Shown piece after piece: positions 6,120 to 29,368 of a stretch of DNA of 38,172 nt. Under the pieces are notes generated by a model. The model was not told the DNA's origin, made no database searches, and saw only the letters and a program-made list of their open reading frames with translations. A program made the position numbers and the translations under genes. The stretch lies in NCBI GenBank assembly GCA_014874455.1, contig JADBJL010000034.1:1-38172 (forward strand), given 5' to 3'. The first letter of the stretch is position 1; each line of letters begins with the position of its first letter. The DNA is from Thermomicrobiaceae bacterium. Its GTDB lineage: Bacteria > Chloroflexota > Chloroflexia > Thermomicrobiales > Thermomicrobiaceae.

Positions 6120-6125
6120 GAGTGG

Positions 6126-6263
6126 AAATGCAACCTGGGCACGTGTGTACGGACACGCAGGACGGTAGCGTGCAGGGAACCGGAAACCCTGGAATTGTCA
6201 TGGCGGGCGGCGCAAGGCCTCTGGGTTCAGGCCGAACCCAGAGGCTTTTTTCATGGGCCCAGC
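6126..6263 (+). promoter_or_regulatory. Candidate transcription-attenuator leader of the pyr operon
   Basis: The transcript predicted from the promoter at 6091-6119 runs through about 90 nt of leader and then meets a strong intrinsic terminator (6217-6251) before the conserved part of PyrC. The leader also contains a CAGGG...CCCTG hairpin (about 6172-6190). Its AACCC can alternatively pair with GGGTT of the terminator's 5' arm, giving a plausible antiterminator choice. Nothing on the plus strand upstream could need this terminator, because the neighbouring upstream gene is on the minus strand. The regulator is not identified: I see no convincing PyrR binding loop. Confidence 0.6.
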
Positions 6264-7612
6264 ATGGGGCGTGGCTCATCCGAGGTGGGCGTGTAGTCGA
6301 CCCATCTCAGCATCTCGACCACGTTGCCGATCTGCTCGTGGTGGCTGGGCGAGTCGCCGGGATCGGCCCCGGTCTTGCAGCCCCTGACGGAACCGCCGTC
6401 TTCGACGCCCAGGGCCTCGTCGTTGCCCCAGGGTTAATCGATGTCCACGTCCACCTGCGGGATCCGGGCTTCCCGGAAAAGGAGACGCTAGAGACGGGTG
6501 CGGCCGCTGCGGCCGCGGGCGGCTTCACGGCGATCTGCTGCATGCCGAACACGGAGCCGCCGCTCGACGCGCCGGAGCGGATCGCCGACGTCGTCACCCG
6601 ATCCCGCCACCTTCCGGTTCGGGTCTACCCGATCGGCACGATCTCTCGTGGTCGCCAGGGGCTGGAGCTGGCCGACCTTGAGGGGATGGCCGAAGCCGGA
6701 GCCATCGGCTTCTCCGACGACGGCGACAGCACGCGCGACAGCCAGGTGATGCGGGCGGCGCTTGCGTGGTCGGCCCGCTCCGGCCGGCCGATCATGGCGC
6801 ACTGCGAGGATCGCGCGCTGGCGGCAGGCGGCGTGATGCACGAGGGGGAGGTCTCGCGCGAGCTGGGGTTGCCGGGGATCCCGGCGGCCGCCGAGGAAAT
6901 CATCCTGATGCGCGATCTGGAGCTGGCTCGCCTCACTGGTGGCTGGCTCCATGTGCTGCACCTCACCACGGCCCGCGGTCGCCGGCTCGTGCGCGCTGCG
7001 AAGGTCGAGGGGATTCGGGTCACAGCCGAAGTCACGCCTCACCACCTCCTGCTGAGCCACGAGTGGGTGGCCGGACGGCGCCGCTTCGCCGGTGAAGCGG
7101 AGGTCATCATCGGCCCCTGCCCCGATCCGAATGCCAAGGTCAACCCGCCGCTCCGTACCGAACTCGACGCGGTCGACCTGCTCGCTGGCCTGCGTGACGG
7201 GAGCATCGACGTGGTTGCCACCGACCACGCGCCACACAGCGAGCGCGACAAGCCGGCCGATCTGGCCCGTGCCGCGTTCGGCATGGTCGGCCTCGAGCTC
7301 GCGCTGCCGCTCATGTTACGACTGGTGGCTCGCGGCGAACTGACACTGCTCGAGGCGATCGATTTCCTGTCGACCCGACCGTCTGTCCTCTTCGGCCTGC
7401 CGGGAGGGACGCTCAGGCCGGGCTCCCCGGCCGATGTCGTGGTGTTCGATCCTGAGGCACCCTGGCAGGTCGAGCGAGCAACGCTGGTCTCGCGGAGCTG
7501 CAACACCCCGCTGCTGGGGATGCGGCTCCAGGGCCGGGCGGTGCTCACGATGGTGGATGGGAAGGTAGTGTATGTCGACACGGACGCGGTTGCCCGGCGC
7601 GCTGGTCCTTGA
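6200..7612 (+). CDS. pyrC: Dihydroorotase (class I type); start uncertain
   Basis: Dihydroorotase, the third step of UMP synthesis, closes carbamoyl-aspartate to dihydroorotate. Metal-site motifs are all present in order: 'DVHVHLRDPG', 'SDDGDS', 'MAHCED', 'VTPHHL' and 'ATDHAPHSERDK'. The C-terminal beta-sandwich ends in a 'GKVVYV' block. Conserved sequence begins at about 6272 (WLIRGGRVVDP), yet no ATG, GTG or TTG exists in frame between the terminator and that point. The nearest in-frame starts are ATG 6200, with only a weak GGA-type SD, and CTG 6221; both would put coding sequence through the terminator. One extra G in the run at 6266-6269 would instead create a normal N-terminus from ATG 6264. 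The 3' end overlaps carA by 41 nt. Confidence 0.9.
   Translation: MAGGARPLGSGRTQRLFSWAQHGAWLIRGGRVVDPSQHLDHVADLLVVAGRVAGIGPGLAAPDGTAVFDAQGLVVAPGLIDVHVHLRDPGFPEKETLETGAAAAAAGGFTAICCMPNTEPPLDAPERIADVVTRSRHLPVRVYPIGTISRGRQGLELADLEGMAEAGAIGFSDDGDSTRDSQVMRAALAWSARSGRPIMAHCEDRALAAGGVMHEGEVSRELGLPGIPAAAEEIILMRDLELARLTGGWLHVLHLTTARGRRLVRAAKVEGIRVTAEVTPHHLLLSHEWVAGRRRFAGEAEVIIGPCPDPNAKVNPPLRTELDAVDLLAGLRDGSIDVVATDHAPHSERDKPADLARAAFGMVGLELALPLMLRLVARGELTLLEAIDFLSTRPSVLFGLPGGTLRPGSPADVVVFDPEAPWQVERATLVSRSCNTPLLGMRLQGRAVLTMVDGKVVYVDTDAVARRAGP
6217..6251 (+). terminator. Intrinsic terminator in the pyr leader
   Basis: A perfect 12-bp stem, GCCTCTGGGTTC (6217-6228) with GAACCCAGAGGC (6234-6245), has a 5-nt loop (6229-6233) and is followed at once by six T residues (6246-6251). 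It is the only stem plus T-run of this quality that I noticed in the window. Its place between promoter and pyrC argues for regulation rather than simple gene-end termination. Confidence 0.85.
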
Positions 7613-8738
7613 AGATGGCCGGATCTTCCCCGGCATGCCCTTCGGCGCCGAGACCGATGCCGAGGGCGAAGCGGTCTTCACCACCGTGATGACAGGCTAT
7701 CAGGAAGTCGCCACCGATCCCTCCTTCTACGGGCAGATCGTCTGCATGACCTACCCGCTGATCGGGAACTACGGCGTCTGCCCCGCGGACGATCAGTCGC
7801 GCCGGCCCTGGATCGCTGGCATGGTCGTGCGCGAGTACTGCGAGGAACCGAGTCACTGGCGCTCCAGCGGTTCGTTCGGCGATTACCTCGCGCGTCATGG
7901 TATCCCGGCGCTGCACTCGGTCGACACGCGCGCTCTGACGCGTCATCTCCGTACGCGCGGGGTGATGCGGGCGGTGCTGGTGTCCAACCGCGCCGGCCGC
8001 AGCGACGAGGAGCTGCGCGAGCTCGCCCGGCAAGCCTGGACGCCGAACACGACCGACGTCGTGCCAGCGGTGACCGGCCAGCCGCGAACCCTCGGGCCGG
8101 AGGACGCCCCGCACGTGGTGCTCATCGATTGCGGCGTCAAGGAGCACATTGTCGAGTCGCTGCTCCGGCGCGGCGTGCGGGTCACGGTCGTGCCGTACGG
8201 CACCACGGCGAAGGCAATCCTCTCGCTGGCCCCCGATGGCGTGCTGACCTCGCCTGGCCCGGGCGATCCGGCTAACGCAGCAGCCGCGGTGTTCACCGTG
8301 CGCGAGCTCGCGCGCAGCGGCCTGCCCTTCTTCGGCATCTGCCTGGGCCACCAGCTCCTGGCGCTGGCAGCCGGGGCGCGAACCAGCAAGCTCAAGTTCG
8401 GCCACCGCGGTGGGAACCACCCGGTCAAGGACTTGCTCAGCGGCGCGGTGCACATGACCTCGCAAAATCATGGCTACCAGGTGGACGCGGACAGCCTTCC
8501 GGCTGACCAGGGCTGGCAGGTCTGGATGGTCAACGTCAACGACGGCACGGTCGAGGGGCTGCGCCACCGAAGCCTGCCGGTGATGTCGGTGCAGTACCAC
8601 CCGGAAGGTTCGCCGGGGCCACAGGACAACCAGTACCTGTTCGACGAGTTTCTCGGCCTCGTCAGGGAACACCGGGAGCGACGACGCGCGACGAACCCGA
8701 GCCTGGCAGCCCAGGCGATCGCCGGGGGGAGTGAGTAG
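7572..8738 (+). CDS. carA: Carbamoyl-phosphate synthase small (glutaminase) subunit
   Basis: A 388-aa small subunit that hydrolyses glutamine and feeds ammonia to CarB. The N-terminal half is the CarA-specific domain ('[19 protein letters not shown]', '[15 protein letters not shown]', '[18 protein letters not shown]'). The C-terminal half is a class I glutamine amidotransferase with nucleophile Cys257 in 'FFGICLGHQ' and His343/Glu345 in 'QYHPEG'. ATG 7572 lies inside the end of pyrC and has GGGAAGG 6 nt upstream, so this start is well supported despite the 41-nt overlap. The stop is 2 nt before carB. Length is typical for the family. Confidence 0.97.
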
Positions 8739-8740
8739 CC

Positions 8741-11700
8741 GTGGGCTCCCGAACGAGCGTCTCGAACGTCCTGGTCATCGGCTCCGGGCCGATCGTCATC
8801 GGCCAGGCGGCCGAGTTCGACTACTCCGGCTCCCAGGCCCTGCGCGCGCTGCGCGAGGAGGGCGTCCGCTCCATCCTCGTCAACTCCAACCCGGCTACCA
8901 TCATGACCGACGAGGACGTGGCGGATGTGGTCTACATCGAGCCGCTCACCGTCGACGTGCTGCACCGCATCATCGCCCGTGAGCGGCCGGACGGGCTCCT
9001 GCCAACGCTGGGAGGACAGACCGGCCTCAACCTGGCCGTGCAGCTCGCCGAAGCGGGCATCCTCGACCACTATGGCGTGCGCGTGCTGGGCACCCCGTTG
9101 GACGCGATCCGCAAGGCCGAGGATCGCCAGCTCTTCAAGGAACTCCTGATCGAGATCGGCGAGCCCGTGGTCGAGAGCGTGATCGCCTACTCGGTCGAGG
9201 AGGCGCGCCGCTTCGCCAGCGAGGTTCCGCTGCCGCTCATCGTCCGCCCGGCCTATACGCTCGGCGGCACCGGCGGCGGGGTGGCGACCACTTCAGAAGA
9301 GCTCGAGGCCCTCGTCCGCAGCGGCATCAACGCCAGCCCGATCGGTCAGGTGCTGGTCGAGCGCTCGCTGCTGGGCTGGAAGGAGATCGAGTACGAGGTG
9401 ATGCGGGATCGCAACGACACCTGCATCACTGTCTGCAACATGGAGAACCTCGACCCGATGGGTGTCCACACCGGCGACAGCATCGTGGTCGCACCCAGCC
9501 AGACGTTGAGCGACCGCGACTACCAGATGCTGCGCTCGGCGTCGCTCAAGATCATCCGCGCGCTCGGCATCGAGGGCGGCTGTAACATCCAGTTCGCGCT
9601 CGACCCGCGGTCGTCCCAGTACTACGTGATCGAGGTCAACCCGCGCGTCAGCCGCAGCTCGGCCCTCGCCTCCAAGGCCACTGGCTACCCGATTGCCCGC
9701 GTCGCGGCCAAGATCGCGGTGGGCCGCACGCTCGACGAGCTGACCAACTCGGTCACCGGCCAGACGTCGGCCGCCTTCGAGCCAGCGCTCGACTACTGCG
9801 TGGTCAAAATCCCGCGCTGGCCCTTCGACAAGTTCCGCCAGGCCGACCGCACGCTGGGCAGCCAGATGAAGGCCACCGGCGAGGTGATGGCGATCGACCG
9901 CTCGTTCGAGGCCGCCCTGCTGAAGGCGGTGCGGTCGCTCGAGACCGACCAGCGTGACCTGCTCTGGGAAGATTCAGCCTGGAACGATCCCGAGCGGCTG
10001 CTCGACTCCGTGCGGCGGCCCAACGACCTCCGGCTCTGGGCGCTGGTAGCCGCACTCCGACGGGGCTACACACCTGAGGAACTTAGCGAGCTGAGCGGGA
10101 TCGACCCCTGGTTCACCCGCAAGCTGCGCCGGATCGTCTGCCTGGAGCGGCGGATCGCCCAGGAGCCGCTGAGCGACGAGTTGCTCTGGGAGGCTAAGCG
10201 GGCCGGCTTCGCCGACCGCACGCTGAGCGCGCTCAGCGGCATCCCGGCCGAGGAGATTGGTCGTCGGCGACGGCAGGCAGGCATTGTACCGGTGTATAAG
10301 ATGGTGGACACCTGCGCAGCCGAGTTCGAAGCTGCGACGCCGTACTTCTACAGCACCTACGAGGACGAGGACGAGGCGACGCCGCTGCCAGGCCCCAAGG
10401 CGGTGGTGATCGGCTCCGGGCCGATCCGGATCGGGCAAGGGATCGAGTTCGACTACTGCAGCGTCAAGGCCGCTCAGGCGCTGCACGAGGCGGGCGTGGC
10501 TGCCATCATGCTCAACAACAACCCGGAGACGGTCTCGACCGACTTCGACGCGTCAGACCGGCTCTACGTCGAGCCGCTGGACGAGGAGAGCGTCTACGAG
10601 GTGCTCCTCCACGAGGCCGGAGGCGAGGACCCCGCCGCATTGCCGCCGGTAATCCTCCAGTTCGGCGGGCAGACGGCCATTAACCTGGCACAGCCGCTGG
10701 CCCGGCTGGGCGTACCGATCCTGGGTACCTCGGACGAGGTGATCGATATCGCCGAAGATCGACGCCGGTTTGAGCGCTTTCTCGCCGAAATCGGCATCCC
10801 CCAGCCACCGGGCACCGGCGTGACCACCCTGGCGGAGGCGATGGAGGCAGCGGAGCGAATCGGCTACCCGGTGCTGGTGCGACCGTCTTACGTGCTCGGC
10901 GGCCGTGCCATGGAGGTGGTGCACGGGCCCGAGGAGCTGGAGCGCTACCTGCTGACCTCGGGCGCCTTCGCCAACGGCCGGCCGGTCTTGATCGACAAGT
11001 ACCTCGAGGGCAAGGAAGTCGAGGTCGACGCCGTCTGCGACGGACACGACGTTTTGATCCCCGGCGTGATGGAGCACATCGAGCGCGCAGGCGTGCACTC
11101 CGGCGATAGCTTCGCCGTCTACCCCGGCGTCCACCTCGACCCGTCCGAGGTGGACACGCTGGTCGAGTACACCACTCGGATCGCGCTCGCTATGGGGGCG
11201 ATCGGGCTGATCAACATCCAGTTCGTGATCCACCGTGGACAGATCTACGTGCTCGAGGTCAATCCCCGTGCCAGCCGGACAGTGCCGTTCCTCAGCAAGG
11301 TGACGGGGGTGCCGATGGTCGCGGTCGCGACCCGCGTGCTGCTCGGCCAGTCACTACGGGCACAGGGGTACAGAGGCGGCCTGTGGCCGCGCCTGCCGCT
11401 GGTCGCGGTCAAAGCGCCGGTCTTCTCGATGTCCAAGCTCCGCGGCGCCGAGGTCTATCTCGGCCCGGAGATGAAGTCCACCGGCGAGGCGATGGGGATC
11501 GATCGCTGCTTCGCGCCAGCGCTCTACAAGGCACTGCTCGCGGCCGGGCTGGCCCTGCCCGCCGGCTGCGGCGTGCTGGTCAGTCTTGCAGACCAGGACA
11601 AGGCAGCCGCGAGAGACATTGTCGAGGGGCTCGTGCAGATGGGCCACCGCATCTACGCCACCGAGGGTACGGCCGCAGCGATCGAACGACACGGATTGCC

Positions 11701-11986
11701 GGTGCAGATGGTGCCCAAGCGCATCGGCCAGGGCTCCCCCAACGTGCTGGACGTGATCCTCGACGGAACCGTACGGGCGGTCATCAATACCCCTGGGCGT
11801 GACGACCACACGGTGCAGGACGGCTTCAAGATCCGGCGAGCGGCGGTGGAGCGCGGTATCCCTTGCATTACCTCGCTGGATACCGCAAGGGCCGTCGTCC
11901 GGGCGGCGAGCGCGGGAGGCGACACGTTCACCGTCCAGCCATTGCCGCTGTACCGCCAGCCCGTGACGGCCGACGTGGTCGGCTGA
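8741..11986 (+). CDS. carB: Carbamoyl-phosphate synthase large subunit
   Basis: The 1081-aa synthetase subunit makes carbamoyl phosphate from bicarbonate, ammonia and two ATP. Both homologous halves are seen: '[17 protein letters not shown]' near residue 10 and '[17 protein letters not shown]' near residue 560, each followed by an ATP-grasp domain ('[12 protein letters not shown]', '[14 protein letters not shown]', '[20 protein letters not shown]', '[20 protein letters not shown]'). An oligomerisation region lies between the halves. The final 145 residues form an MGS-like allosteric domain, where pyrimidine or purine nucleotides usually act. GTG start with a GGGGGAG SD about 9 nt upstream. 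Full family length, no defect seen. It follows carA by 2 nt and precedes cax by 10 nt. Confidence 0.98.
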
Positions 11987-23836: not shown

Positions 23837-26455
23837 CTAGGCCATGCGCTTGACCCAGGCCTCTTCGGGCATGAGCGCCTCGTGACCAGCCGGCCGGATC
23901 TTGCGGTACACCTGCTCCGGCGGCAGCCGGCGCCCGTCGACGCTGAGGAGGTAGTCCACCGGGATGCCGAAGAGCCGCTCGTTCTCCTCGAGGTAAGGCC
24001 GGATCAGTGCCCAATCCTCCACCGTCAGCGGAGCGAACTCGCCGCCGTTGAGCTGGCTCTCGTCGAGCAGCCCCCGCGGGTCACGGACGTAGATCGCTCC
24101 ACCAGAGGCCAGGGAGAAGAGGTTGCCGCCCGGATAGGGCGTGTCAAGCTCGTACAGCCGCCCGTCCTCGTCGAAGGCCACCCCGTTGAGGATCGCGAAG
24201 CCGCCCCCGTCCAGCGGGTCGCCGGCCATGAACGACTCGGCCAGGTAGTCGAGGCAGGTGCCGTTGATCACCACGCGTGGCCGGCCGACCGCATTGATCA
24301 GCGGCCGCCCGGCGGCATTGCCCAGGACGAAAGCCCTACCTCCCTTGGCAGCGTAGCCGAACGTCTGGCCAACGTCGCCGTAGACGATCAAGGTGCCGTC
24401 CTTCATGATCTGGGCGAGCTGGTCCTGGGCACTGCCGTGCACCACCAGCTCGGCACCATCCAGCCCCGAGGCGAGGTAGTCGCCGGAGGAGCCATACACG
24501 TCGATCCGCAGGCCGTGGGAGTTCGGCCCCAGGCCACAGCCGAGGAAGCGCTGGCCCCGGACGTTCGCCACGAGGATCCGGCGGAAGCCGCAGCGGTAGG
24601 AGTGGACGACTGCGCGGGCCAGCGAGTGTTCTCCCTCCGACGGAAAGCCGCGGGCGTCGATCACCAGAGCCGCGCGCGGATCGGCCGGCGACGGCACCGG
24701 GCTCTCCCAGCCCATCCAGGCATACCCCGGCGTCGGCCGGCGCCGGATCTGATCGACCACGCCAGCCAGGCTCCGATCGGCCAGCGCCAGCACGCAGCTC
24801 CGCTTCATGACGCCGGTGGGGTAGCGGCGATCGATGAGCAGTGTCAGCACCGCGATCACCCGCGCCCGATCCTCGTCGCCCCCGGTAGCCAGGCGCTCCA
24901 GCGCCGCCAGGAGCGCGGCGACCTCGCCGTAGTCCCAGGCGGGCAGCCGCTCCCGCACTTGGGCGAAGAGCTCCTCGGGGGGCACATCCAGGTCGATACC
25001 GGGCGGAGCGCCCCTGTGGACGACAGCCGGCCCGCTCGCCGCGCGGGTGAGCGGGCGCTTGCGCGGATCCGGGGCGATGCGGCGCCCGAACTTGTCGGTG
25101 CAGGTGAGCGTTGCGCTGGCGCTCCCGTCGAGCTGCACCGTGAAGATGAACGCGCCGCCATCCGTGTGGCTGCCGCCGCGGGCGTTCCAATACAGGTCGG
25201 CCCGCGGCCAGACTCGAGGCTCGTCCTGCGCGATGCTCTCCAGCGCGGCATCGATCGCTTGCTTCTCCGAGGCGGCCAAGCCGATCGAGAGCTCACCCTG
25301 CTGGAGGGCGAAGACCTGCGGCCGCAGCATCGAGGTGTCGGTGATCCCGATCAGCCGGCAGGCCCGGCTGGCGGGAAGCGACTGGGCGATCAGGAAGAAC
25401 CAGGGGCCGTCAGGCGAGCCGTGGATATGCACGGCCTGGAGCATCTCGTAGATGCGCTGCTTCTCCGGCGGCAGCAGGGTGAAGTCGCGCTCGGTGGTGG
25501 GGGCCATCGCCTCGACCACGTACTCCAGCGGATACCCGTAGACCCGGTGGAGGAGGTCGAAGACCAGCACGGCCACTTCGGTGTCGGTCAGGAAGAGCGG
25601 GTAGATGTTGCGCTGGGCCAGGTAGGCGCAGATCGATGCGTAGTTCGCGAAGTCCCCGTTGTGGACGAGCGCGTCGTGCATCCCGAGGAAGGGGTGCGCG
25701 CCGCCCGGATGCCAGACCTTTCCCTTGGTCGGGTAGCGGTGGTGCCCGATCCAGACGTGGGCATGGAGATCCTCCAGCCGGTAGTAGCGCACCACGTCGT
25801 CGCCGTAGCCGACCAGCTTGAGGATCAGCAGGTTCTTCCCGTGCGAGAGGACGAAAGCACGCTTCTCCCCGCTCGCGGCATACCAGGCACGGTTGAGCCG
25901 GTAGGTGTTCTGGTAGACGATCTCATCCTCCGCCGCCTCGGCGTGCCGCTCCGAGATGCCGTGCTCGCACATGAAGGCCACGCGAACCTCGGGCCGGACG
26001 CGGGCGAAGTAGCAGACCACCTCCGGCGGGGGAACCTCCAGGCTGGGCAAGGTGCGGTAGTCCGGCAGCGTGCGCAGCCGGTGGACGTAGTCGACGAGGA
26101 AGACCGGCTCGATAAATCCAGCTTCGACCTCAGGCCGAACCGACCGGTCGAGGTAGGCGACTGCCAGCAAATAGTCGGTCTGGAGGATGGCTGGCGAGAC
26201 CCCGAAGAAGGTCGGATCCAGGCCGGCGGCCGCGATCCCGCCGCCTTTGCCGTTGCCGCGGTTGCGCATCTGAATCAGGGCCTGGAGGAGGTGCTTCCCG
26301 GCCAGCGGCTGGCTCGAGGCGATGCCGATGACGCCGCAGCCACCCTCGGCTTCAGCCTTGCGCAGTGGCACTCCCTGCCCGGCGACGAGCGGCCACCGTG
26401 AGGCGATGAGCCGCTTAGCGAGCCTGACCTGATCCGATACGGTTTCCCCGCTCAT
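23837..26455 (-). CDS. Glutamate-synthase-like class II amidotransferase fused to GXGXG domain
   Basis: An 872-aa fusion of two glutamate-synthase parts without the FMN barrel. N-terminal class II amidotransferase: Cys40 after Gly-Gly ('GGCGVIGIA'), implying removal of a 39-residue propeptide; 'MRNRGNGKGGGIAAAG'; 'GHHRYPTKG'; and 'LVHNGDFANY', which binds glutamine. This domain runs to about residue 470. A linker region leads to a GXGXG beta-helix (about 630-800: 'RIDVYGSSGDYLASGL', 'IVYGDVGQTFGYAAKGG', 'AVGRPRVVINGTCLDYLAESFM'). It should produce ammonia from glutamine and pass it to the FMN subunit from the adjacent gene, which it overlaps by 41 nt. SD GGGAGA precedes ATG 26455. The role could be glutamate synthase or N-methylglutamate synthase (MgsA+MgsB-like). 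Confidence 0.88.
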   Translation of the reverse strand: MSGETVSDQVRLAKRLIASRWPLVAGQGVPLRKAEAEGGCGVIGIASSQPLAGKHLLQALIQMRNRGNGKGGGIAAAGLDPTFFGVSPAILQTDYLLAVAYLDRSVRPEVEAGFIEPVFLVDYVHRLRTLPDYRTLPSLEVPPPEVVCYFARVRPEVRVAFMCEHGISERHAEAAEDEIVYQNTYRLNRAWYAASGEKRAFVLSHGKNLLILKLVGYGDDVVRYYRLEDLHAHVWIGHHRYPTKGKVWHPGGAHPFLGMHDALVHNGDFANYASICAYLAQRNIYPLFLTDTEVAVLVFDLLHRVYGYPLEYVVEAMAPTTERDFTLLPPEKQRIYEMLQAVHIHGSPDGPWFFLIAQSLPASRACRLIGITDTSMLRPQVFALQQGELSIGLAASEKQAIDAALESIAQDEPRVWPRADLYWNARGGSHTDGGAFIFTVQLDGSASATLTCTDKFGRRIAPDPRKRPLTRAASGPAVVHRGAPPGIDLDVPPEELFAQVRERLPAWDYGEVAALLAALERLATGGDEDRARVIAVLTLLIDRRYPTGVMKRSCVLALADRSLAGVVDQIRRRPTPGYAWMGWESPVPSPADPRAALVIDARGFPSEGEHSLARAVVHSYRCGFRRILVANVRGQRFLGCGLGPNSHGLRIDVYGSSGDYLASGLDGAELVVHGSAQDQLAQIMKDGTLIVYGDVGQTFGYAAKGGRAFVLGNAAGRPLINAVGRPRVVINGTCLDYLAESFMAGDPLDGGGFAILNGVAFDEDGRLYELDTPYPGGNLFSLASGGAIYVRDPRGLLDESQLNGGEFAPLTVEDWALIRPYLEENERLFGIPVDYLLSVDGRRLPPEQVYRKIRPAGHEALMPEEAWVKRMA

Positions 26456-27764
26456 CGGAGTCTCCCGGCTTGCGATAGACCAGCAGATCGACGCGGCCGC
26501 GCAGCTCGCGCACGCTGCGCAGCCCGAGACGCCGCAGGATGTCGCGGAGCTGCGCCTGGAAGGAGGCGTAGAGCCGGCTGAGCCGCTCGGCGCCCCAGTC
26601 GGGGTCGACGAGCTGGGACAGCTCCGGGTCGGTCGTAGTCAAGCCGAAGGGGCAGCCGCGCCCGCGCTCGCAGTTCCCGCAGCGCGTGCAGCCGAGCGCC
26701 ACCAGTTCGGTCGTGCCCAGCACACAGCCGTCGGCGCCCAGCGCGATGGCCTTGGCGATATCGTAGGCCGTGCGGACGCCGCCGCTGGCCATGATCACCA
26801 CCTCGTCGCGGATCCCCTCTTGTTCGAGGAAACGATGCACCCGCGGCAGCGCGAGCTCGATCGGCATGGCGATGTTCTTCTTGGCGATCTCCGGCGCCGC
26901 TCCGGTGCCGCCGTAGCCGCCGTCGATGTGGATGATGTGAGCCCCGGCGTAGTAGCTGCCGACGGCCACCATGTCGATATCGGTGGGCGTCGAGACCTTG
27001 ACCGAAACCAGCGCCTCGGGGTTGACCGTCCGCACCCAGTCGATGTGCTTCTTGTGGTCTTCGACCGAGTAGACGCTGTGGAACGGGAAGGGCGAGAAGA
27101 GGCTGACCCAGGGCACGCTCTCCCGCATCCTGGCGACCGCCACGGTGGCCTTGTCGCCAAGCAGATGGCCGCCCAGGCCTGGCTTCGCTCCCTGCGCGTA
27201 CTTGAACTCGATGATCGGCGCCCACTGGATCGTCTCCTCGCGCACGCCGAACATCCCGGTCGCGATCTGGGTGATCACGTGGTCGCGGTAGGGAACGAGC
27301 GACTCCGGGTAGCCGCCCTCGCCGGTCGAGGTAAAGGTGCGCCACTCCTTCGCCGCCTTGGCTCGAGCGAGCATGATCTGCTCGCTGACCGACCCGAAGG
27401 ACATCCCACCGCCGTACCAGGGGATCGGGATCTCGACCGGTCGCTCGCCTGGCCGGCGGTTCAGCGGGATCGAGGTGTCTACCGGCACGCTCTCCGAGAG
27501 CTGCTGCTCGGGCGGCAGGAAGCGGAAGTCGAGCGCGTCGAACCCGCCCCCCGACCGGCCGACCCGGTACTCCAGCCCGTTCACCGGCGGGCGACCGGTC
27601 TCGGCCTGCAGCCAGGTGGCCAGGATCAGCTCCGCGGGCCAGCGCTCGTCGCCCATCGCTGGCGGCAACCCGAAGTCGAGCGTGGGCCAGCGGTGGTAAC
27701 CCTGATGCAGGGCCTCCTCGTGCTTCCGGATAATCGACTGCTCAGACCCCCTACGCGTCAGCAC
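26415..27764 (-). CDS. Glutamate synthase domain-2 (FMN, Fe-S) protein
   Basis: A 449-aa FMN-binding barrel equivalent to the central domain of GltB (COG0069 type). Marks: 'IPWYGGGMSFGSVSEQIM', 'STGEGGYPES', 'IEFKYAQGAKPGLGGHLLG', 'IIHIDGGYGGTGAAP', 'IMASGGVRTAYDIAKAIALGAD', and the Fe-S loop with Cys359, Cys362, Cys365 and Cys371 ('GCTRCGNCERGRGCPFGL'). Four cysteines instead of the three of bacterial GltB resemble the archaeal-type stand-alone proteins. It should carry out the reductive transfer of ammonia to 2-oxoglutarate, or methylamine if MgsC-like. GTG start with GGAGG 7 nt upstream on the minus strand; overlaps the preceding gene by 14 nt and the next by 41 nt. No GltD-type flavoprotein lies nearby, so ferredoxin or the partner protein may give electrons. 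Confidence 0.92.
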   Translation of the reverse strand: MLTRRGSEQSIIRKHEEALHQGYHRWPTLDFGLPPAMGDERWPAELILATWLQAETGRPPVNGLEYRVGRSGGGFDALDFRFLPPEQQLSESVPVDTSIPLNRRPGERPVEIPIPWYGGGMSFGSVSEQIMLARAKAAKEWRTFTSTGEGGYPESLVPYRDHVITQIATGMFGVREETIQWAPIIEFKYAQGAKPGLGGHLLGDKATVAVARMRESVPWVSLFSPFPFHSVYSVEDHKKHIDWVRTVNPEALVSVKVSTPTDIDMVAVGSYYAGAHIIHIDGGYGGTGAAPEIAKKNIAMPIELALPRVHRFLEQEGIRDEVVIMASGGVRTAYDIAKAIALGADGCVLGTTELVALGCTRCGNCERGRGCPFGLTTTDPELSQLVDPDWGAERLSRLYASFQAQLRDILRRLGLRSVRELRGRVDLLVYRKPGDSDERGNRIGSGQAR

Positions 27765-29154
27765 CGTAGCCAGCCACCTCCGCGAAGGCTTCCCGCTCCA
27801 GCTCGGCCTGGAACATGCAGCGCCCCAGCTCGCCGCGCAGGCGCCGTACCTCGCGCAGCCCCATCGCGCCCAGCACTTCGAGCAACTGGTCGCGCCAGGA
27901 AGCGGCCAGGTTCTTCAGGCGCTGGACGCCCCAGGCCGGCTCGAGCCGCGGGAACGAGACGGGCGCGGTCTCCGGATCCCGGCACTCGCCGGCGAAGCGG
28001 GCCTGCAGCGCCACCCAGAGCGCCGTGTCGAGCGCGACGGCATCGAGCCCGCAGATGATCGCCTTGGGCACATGCTCAGCCATCACGATGCCCCCGCTCC
28101 CGATCAGCGTGACCTCCTCGCGCAGGCCGGCCTCCACCAGCCGCTGGTGCGCCCGCCGGATCAGGTCCATGACGAAGGAGCCACCCTGCATCCCGTGGTA
28201 ATCGGCCGTCAGGTGCAGGACCCTGGCACCCTGCCGCACCAGGTCCAGGACATCGCTGTCCATCGGCACGCGGGCGCAGGGGATGCTCTCGGGGAAGCGA
28301 CGCTCCAGCTCGGCGACGCGCTCTCGATTCCAGCCCGCGAGCGCGATCATGCGAGGCGACCAGCTCAGCCGCGGGAGCCAGCGCCAGGTCTCCTTCTCCA
28401 CGACCGGGACGACGTGTGATCCAGCCAGGTCGAATCGGACGACCAGATCCACCGGCACCATCACCAGGGTCTCGATCTCCTGCGCCGCCCGCGCCAGGAT
28501 CTCCAGCAGCAGGCGCGGCCGGGCGCTCCGCGGCGGGTAGTCGAACAGGAACGGCACCTGGATCGTGATGACCTTCGGCGGCGTCCCGACCGGCTCCCCC
28601 CGCTCGTCGAACACGAGCTGAGGCGGCTTCTCGCCGATGTCGACTGCCGTCGAGATGAACTCCCGGCCATGGATGCCGTCCCGGGTCGGCCGGACGATCT
28701 CCGACATGTCGGTCCACATGCCATCCCAGCCGGCTCCGCCGAAGGGGCCGCGATAGCCTGCCCCGCGAACCGGCACGTGGCCGGTGCGAGCCTCGTAGAG
28801 CAGGGTGTCGACGTACGCGGGCTTCAGGTAGGAGTCGCCGAGGCGCTCCCGCTCCGGGTTCGGGTAAATCTGGACGACTTCGGGGTGCTGCACGGTGCAG
28901 CGCAGGCAACCGACGCAGAGTTCTTCCTTCGGGGCCAGCCCGCCGACCGGCCGGGAGAACACGCCGTAGACGCACGGTCGGCTCAATATCACCGGCAGGT
29001 CGCCCCGGTAGCGGACGAGTTCCTTGAGGACGAGCCCGATCAGTCGATGCTTCTCGACCTTGACTCGGAAGCGGGGAGGGAGGCGAACGAGATCCGGCGC
29101 AGGGCGGATCGCGATACGGTAGCGGCGATAGGTAGGTCTGACGGCGGTGACCAC
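27751..29154 (-). CDS. Degenerate FMN-barrel paralogue with N-terminal ferredoxin-like cysteines
   Basis: A protein of about 467 aa, first gene of the minus-strand operon. Its C-terminal 200 residues align by eye with the end of the neighbouring FMN-domain protein ('GMQGGSF', 'VTLIGSGGIVMAEHVPKAIICGLDAVAL', then 'RLKNLAASWRDQLLEVLGAMGLREVRRLRGELG'). The Fe-S cysteine loop of that domain is missing. Instead an N-terminal region carries four cysteines ('RPCVYG' then 'LCVGCLRCTVQHPEV'), like a 4Fe-4S ferredoxin site. It may be an electron-transfer or structural subunit. Start: GTG 29154 has GGGAG 5 nt upstream; ATG 29256 in the same frame lacks an SD and would add 34 residues. The stop overlaps the next gene by 14 nt. 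Confidence 0.78.
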   Translation of the reverse strand: MVTAVRPTYRRYRIAIRPAPDLVRLPPRFRVKVEKHRLIGLVLKELVRYRGDLPVILSRPCVYGVFSRPVGGLAPKEELCVGCLRCTVQHPEVVQIYPNPERERLGDSYLKPAYVDTLLYEARTGHVPVRGAGYRGPFGGAGWDGMWTDMSEIVRPTRDGIHGREFISTAVDIGEKPPQLVFDERGEPVGTPPKVITIQVPFLFDYPPRSARPRLLLEILARAAQEIETLVMVPVDLVVRFDLAGSHVVPVVEKETWRWLPRLSWSPRMIALAGWNRERVAELERRFPESIPCARVPMDSDVLDLVRQGARVLHLTADYHGMQGGSFVMDLIRRAHQRLVEAGLREEVTLIGSGGIVMAEHVPKAIICGLDAVALDTALWVALQARFAGECRDPETAPVSFPRLEPAWGVQRLKNLAASWRDQLLEVLGAMGLREVRRLRGELGRCMFQAELEREAFAEVAGYGADA

Positions 29155-29368
29155 TGCTGCTCCCGGAAAGCCGACGATCGATGTGTGCGAGTACGAAACC
29201 AGGTGGCTATCCTCAGTCGCCCGCTCTGCCAGCCAGAACGGGCAGGCCGTGGTCATGGCGCTCTACCGGCAGGCATCGCCCTCTCTGGCTCCAGCGCTGG
29301 CCGCTCGCCGCACCGTCGCGTCTCGCCGCGCGTCCTCGCGCCTTCGTTCCTGATTACCCGATAGAGCA

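Follow-up and report, generated by a model that had tools for sequence, protein, structure and literature searches.

Three overlapping genes of a Thermomicrobiaceae bacterium probably encode a heterotrimeric glutamate synthase that lacks GltD

A 38,172-nt stretch of DNA from a Thermomicrobiaceae bacterium (contig JADBJL010000034.1), referred to here in its full length as the window, carries three overlapping minus-strand genes, P1, P2 and P3, that in all likelihood encode a heterotrimeric glutamate synthase without GltD. The central and synthase blocks of the ordinary single-chain enzyme, GltB, would occur in it as P1 and P2, and the two ends of that enzyme would be joined as P3. Judging from the sequences, the activity would most likely be that of a glutamine:2-oxoglutarate glutamate synthase fed by low-potential, ferredoxin-level electrons. 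Glutamate synthase is one of the main gates of nitrogen into biology, and the trio would represent a third architecture of the enzyme, distinct from both GltB and the archaeal split type.

An earlier note on this DNA had described a glutamate synthase-like complex whose domains are dealt out anew among proteins that are made together, and this description has held up well. The open reading frames (ORFs), their order and their overlaps of 14 nt (P1/P2, 27751-27764) and 41 nt (P2/P3, 26415-26455) were confirmed, while Pfam domains and motifs placed the amidotransferase and GXGXG domains in one protein (P3) and the flavin mononucleotide (FMN)/Fe-S barrel in a second (P2), just as the note had it. 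The one-chain order of GltB (glutaminase, central domain, FMN barrel, GXGXG domain) is thus replaced by three ORFs. No GltD gene adjoins the trio, again in line with the note, and when a GltD partner was sought, the host genome gave no more than a partial Fer4_20 match, within a frame of 653 aa, and the congener G001 gave nothing. For P1, a GTG start at 29154 fits the 467-468 aa ORFs of relatives better than an upstream ATG at 29256. Its Pfam match to Glu_synthase (PF01645) is weak (E 5e-7, 60 residues); in P3, the GXGXG domain was matched as well and GATase_6 fell under the Pfam cut-off, yet every catalytic motif is present. Ratios of nonsynonymous to synonymous substitution (dN/dS) against two congeners were 0.21-0.27 for P1 and 0.08-0.09 for P2, with a value of 0.15 for P3 (one congener), and these low ratios, together with retention of the trio across phyla, argue that the three genes are not chance ORFs. 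The note had also called the third barrel, that of P1, degenerate. This is correct for the clade of the window insofar as the Fe-S cysteines of the barrel have been lost, but P1 is an intact barrel under strong constraint and not debris.

P2 and P3 together possess the hallmarks of a glutamate synthase, namely a PurF-type glutaminase with an N-terminal cysteine following a propeptide and an FMN barrel with [3Fe-4S] cysteines and a loop-4 glutamate (Table 1). In P2, Cys359, Cys365 and Cys371 align with the three [3Fe-4S] ligands of GltB and are conserved among relatives, Cys362 is absent in two P1-P2 fusions, and the QGAKPG-GG, GGTGA and SGG motifs are also retained. The loop-4 glutamate of GltB, the counterpart of Glu235, couples the glutaminase site to the synthase site. 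In P3, Cys40, NRGN65, RYPT240, HNGD265 and TDTE290 are all invariant.

Table 1. Positions of the three genes and of their principal domains, motifs and residues in the window.
Feature	Position	Strand	Description
P1	27751..29154	(-)	Ferredoxin-like stub with one cluster and full-length, degenerate GltB2-type barrel; proposed counterpart of GltB central domain and proposed site of electron entry
P2	26415..27764	(-)	FMN and Fe-S glutamate synthase (GltB2) barrel; PF01645, E 2.7e-89; also matches GltB synthase domains
P3	23837..26455	(-)	Class II (PurF-type) glutaminase, 39-residue propeptide, linker and GXGXG beta-helix domain in a single chain
P3 GXGXG domain (PF01493)	24062..24520	(-)	Residues 646-798, E 1.9e-10
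P3 Cys40 (EGGC/GV)	26336..26338	(-)	Predicted N-terminal nucleophile once the propeptide is removed
P2 Fe-S motif CTRCGNCERGRGC	26652..26690	(-)	Cys359, 362, 365, 371; alignment to 1ea0 and 1llw
P2 Glu235 (YSVED)	27060..27062	(-)	Aligned to GltB loop-4 Glu; invariant
P1 Cys95, Cys114, Cys117, Cys120 (numbered from ATG 29256)	28897..28974	(-)	Presumed ligands of one [4Fe-4S] cubane of a 2[4Fe-4S] ferredoxin
P1 signature TDMSEIVRPTRDGIHGRE	28660..28713	(-)	Counterpart of QVTNPxIDPxRE in GltB central domain and archaeal-type GltB2; nearly invariant in 52 P1

The place of P1 in the enzyme is indicated by a natural P1-P2 fusion (locus L066), modelled without templates (predicted template modelling score, pTM, 0.80). 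The model superposes rigidly on GltB over ~600 residues at 3.3-3.6 Å (Z 33.4, 612 residues and 3.3 Å for 7mfm_G; Z 32.8 and 597 residues for 1ea0_A, covering the GltB range 451-1182), as opposed to only ~290 residues for single-barrel enzymes, and Foldseek matched it to GltB chains with E of 1e-25 to 1e-27, the next best match being 1e-12. The borders of GltB have been set at 1-422 for the glutaminase, 423-780 for the central domain, 781-1202 for the synthase domain and 1203-1472 for the beta-helix (PMC8097209), and P1 therefore sits at the central-domain position, packed in the predicted model on the synthase barrel. Gene order tells the same story, as P1-P2 is the central-synthase order of GltB and P3 is the remainder once that middle is removed. 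As modelled, the trio resembles a GltB whose middle part is set apart as P1-P2 and whose ends are linked to one another as P3; P1 apparently corresponds to the central domain, a match that the earlier note did not foresee. Natural P1-P2 gene fusions, found in ten genomes, further argue that the two proteins function as a pair. Among 88 barrels placed in one tree, P1 and P2 each formed a clade at 100% and were sisters at 95%, while archaeal-type single-chain GltB2, GltB, GlxD/MgsC and further FMN barrels fell elsewhere; P1 and P2 are a pair of ancient paralogues.

A short sequence element likewise ties P1 to the central domain. QVTNPPIDPxRE occurs in GltB central domains and in single-chain GltB2, and P1 has IVRPTRDGIHGRE at the same place; by alignment, no QVTNPxIDPxRE-like element is present in P2 or in the FMN/synthase domain of GltB. 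The ferredoxin-like stub of P1 holds four cysteines, which we take from the general ferredoxin pattern to serve one cubane of a 2[4Fe-4S] ferredoxin, and which are invariant in all 52 P1 aligned. Cysteines for the second cubane are found in 31 of the 52 and have been lost in the window's clade. The P1 of anaerobes, and many P2, carry a two-cluster ferredoxin domain at the N-terminus, whereas P2 of the window's clade has lost its own. With the second P1 cubane, the P1 barrel cysteines and the P2 ferredoxin domain all gone, this clade is predicted to retain just two clusters, one each in P1 and P2.

A scan of genome contigs with P3 detected at least 505 related loci in bacteria and archaea, and the best 80 of these were used for lineage and neighbour counts. 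They belong to Chloroflexota, Calidithermus, Acidobacteriota, Gemmatimonadota, Bipolaricaulota, many delta-proteobacterial lineages, Nitrospirota, Armatimonadota, Bathyarchaeota, Thermoplasmatota and ANME-1, and the closest named relative among the matches listed is Thermalbibacter longus (P3 90% identical). The order P1-P2-P3 on one strand was seen at 54 of the 55 loci having sufficient upstream DNA, and the trio of the window shares with this family its gene order, its P1 and P2 clades and its fused P3. Closer to home, the trio was found in four searched members of the host genus, one copy being decayed, and elsewhere in the host's phylum; it was not found in the other 57 searched family- and order-level genomes, which gave a few weak matches to other barrels. 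A search of P1 against 72,556 plasmid records returned no match. Genes near the 80 loci encode MvhD-like proteins (16), MetV (15), MetF (13), GlnA (11), AmtB (8), HdrB (7), FAD-linked oxidase (6), CarA (6), CarB (5) and PII (5). Such neighbours belong with ammonia assimilation and with electron supply through Hdr/MvhD. Many uncultivated bacteria and archaea seem to have no other GltB-like enzyme than the trio.

Several points weigh against a GltD-less heterotrimer built in this way. Full-length GltB is missing from 48 of 53 carriers, 14 of which are also without a clear glutamate dehydrogenase (GDH; ELFV dehydrogenase), but many carriers are incomplete metagenome-assembled genomes, so that single absences are soft. 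The trio is dispensable in the host genus, given the presence of an ordinary GltB and the decay of one copy. The L066 model covers P1-P2 without P3, and it is not fully independent, as AlphaFold may have learnt the domain arrangement of GltB. When P1 was modelled alone (predicted local distance difference test, pLDDT, 82.8; pTM 0.83), the GltB central domain did not rank with the top structural matches; the best was the GltB synthase barrel (Z 23.7, whole barrel). This does not by itself exclude a relation to the central domain, but it would be expected if P1 were merely an electron-transfer or regulatory subunit whose likeness to that domain reflects only what AlphaFold has learnt and general barrel homology, as would the weak HHalign match between the central domain and P1 (probability 82%). 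Such a reading is nonetheless unlikely in light of the rigid superposition across both GltB domains, the identical P1-P2 order, the natural fusions and the QVTNPxIDPxRE-like element retained in common.

Another reading, raised by the earlier note, is that the trio uses another amine or acceptor and makes a product other than glutamate, as an enzyme akin to N-methylglutamate synthase or specific for some other amine or acceptor. The domain set is akin to MgsABC, the P2 barrel is ~30% identical to GlxD/MgsC, and the host already holds GltB and GDH; even so, this reading is very improbable. The genome check that the note had proposed showed no GmaS in the host, where the best of five glutamine synthetase-like proteins scored 357 against a TIGR03105 cut-off of 469.6 (665 for Aminobacter GmaS). 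A SoxD-type mgd subunit was not found in the host either, in a search whose control genomes gave no match and whose model is shown to work on the Aminobacter protein only. MgsA, B and C are separate genes adjoining gmaS and mgd genes, so that the note was right to set their layout apart, and the domain trees it had called for separate all three proteins from GltB, archaeal-type GltB and MgsABC/GlxBCD; the glutaminase and GXGXG trees hold very long branches and are used solely to show that the P3 group stands apart. Moreover, the synthase and glutaminase residues match those of GltB, the gene neighbourhoods of relatives point to ammonia assimilation, and many carriers are without another GltB and have glnA, amtB or PII nearby. 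Membership in MgsABC/GlxBCD itself was rejected on account of the layout, the trees and the failure to find GmaS and SoxD in the host. What survives of the suggestion is an electron donor different from that of the usual glutamate synthase, which is plausible.

The host also encodes an ordinary GltB, GDH and two type I GlnA. The decayed copy of the trio lies in G003, of the same genus (L047, 7770-11635), where a ~1.8-kb deletion across P1/P2 fuses the front of P1 to the tail of P2 and P3 is frameshifted. It is scarcely credible that the trio of the window is itself a non-functional or dying remnant, despite that decay and the absence from other searched family and order relatives, as the window copy is intact, is under purifying selection against G001 and G002 and keeps all active-site motifs. 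The ordinary GltB gene of G001 (L185, 4132-10517; L053 and L054 in the host) adjoins AmtB and PII genes and has no adjacent GltD, and the ordinary GltB of the genus may itself be ferredoxin-dependent.

If the heterotrimer operates like GltB, P3 would hydrolyse glutamine at Cys40, as its conserved motifs indicate, and the ammonia released would travel to the P2 barrel via a tunnel between P1 and P2. There, FMN would reduce 2-iminoglutarate, derived from 2-oxoglutarate, to glutamate. P1 would stand where GltB has its central domain, and its [4Fe-4S] stub would receive low-potential electrons, probably from ferredoxin or another donor of about that potential, and hand them on to the Fe-S cluster of P2 and to FMN. 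In this thermophile, the complex would constitute a second glutamate synthase beside the ordinary GltB.

The trio also bears on the origin of the central domain. In GltB, this domain is a truncated barrel that lines the ammonia tunnel together with the synthase domain, and it has been debated whether it arose independently or from a synthase barrel that was duplicated and truncated (PMC8097209); in the predicted model of the trio, a whole duplicated barrel occupies the same place. HHalign matched GltB central domains to single-chain GltB2 at 98.5% over 270 columns, as compared with the 82% of P1 and 44% for P2, a ranking which suggests that the central domain arose by copying of a barrel of the GltB2 type. 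In alignments of central domains (L185, L190 and others) to the GltB2 of L056, the 270 columns include the QVTNPxIDPxRE element, in support of barrel duplication. A quick tree including central domains missed better trees, and a careful tree was then built, in which P1 joins P2 (support 94/84). Such a clade would imply two separate recruitments of a second barrel to the same place, but P1 and the central domain as one clade were not rejected (p-AU, from the approximately unbiased test, 0.87). It is conceivable, if rather doubtful, that the tripartite set keeps an un-fused state ancestral to GltB, whereby a barrel duplicated to give P1 and P2 was later inserted into P3 between glutaminase and beta-helix, and the central domain descends from P1. 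This scenario is neither demonstrated nor contradicted by the tree.

Among known systems, GltB and ferredoxin-dependent glutamate synthase (1ea0, 7mfm, 1ofd) share with the trio four functional blocks, the PurF-type glutaminase, the FMN barrel with three [3Fe-4S] cysteines and the loop-4 glutamate, and the P1-P2 model overlays their central and synthase domains. The trio differs in its three genes, in a glutaminase fused straight to GXGXG, in having no GltD, and in a central block that is a whole barrel carrying its own Fe-S stub. In the archaeal-type split synthase, as found in Dehalococcoidia-like relatives (G067, G213), the homologous domains form separate GltB1, GltB2 with N-terminal ferredoxin, and GltB3. 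Its GltB2 with a 2[4Fe-4S] ferredoxin is nearest to P2 by sequence and resembles P1 in layout, but it is a single barrel rather than two paralogues, GltB1 and GltB3 are unfused, and the clade is separate. MgsABC/GlxBCD also spreads glutaminase, GXGXG and FMN barrel over more than one chain, but as three single-domain subunits with no second barrel, with linkage to gmaS and mgd, and in a clade of its own. The putative F420-dependent FGltS (PMC9012536, PMC3087415) has in common the glutamate synthase subunits, an occurrence in anaerobic archaea and an alternative electron donor; it is defined, however, by an FrhB-like F420 subunit, and none is encoded beside the window trio. No description of the trio was found in the open-access literature searched, including papers on ANME FGltS, on GltS structure and on the evolution of GOGAT, which covers GltB, separate archaeal domains and F420-linked forms, and databases surely label its single subunits as glutamate synthase-related.

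At the deltaproteobacterial loci L094, L098, L100, L117 and L121, mvhD, metV and metF (varying by locus) lie immediately upstream and hdrC/hdrB, with hdrA in some, immediately downstream, which suggests a common Hdr/MvhD electron source for methylene-tetrahydrofolate reductase and glutamate synthase. At L082, L093, L102, L106, L119 and L140, a fused FAD_binding_4/FAD-oxidase_C/Fer4 oxidoreductase is encoded directly upstream of P1, often overlapping it, and could possibly be a dedicated electron donor. In a member of Nitrospiraceae (UBA6902; L130, 11691-16834), a second, highly divergent set directly downstream of the tripartite one encodes amidotransferase-like (369 aa), GltB2-like (553 aa) and GXGXG-like (777 aa) proteins. 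Finally, genes for an amidohydrolase (dihydroorotase-like), CarA and CarB are consecutive at 6122-11986 in the window, 12 kb from the trio, and CarA/CarB genes directly follow P3 in the relatives L089, L096, L106 and L118.

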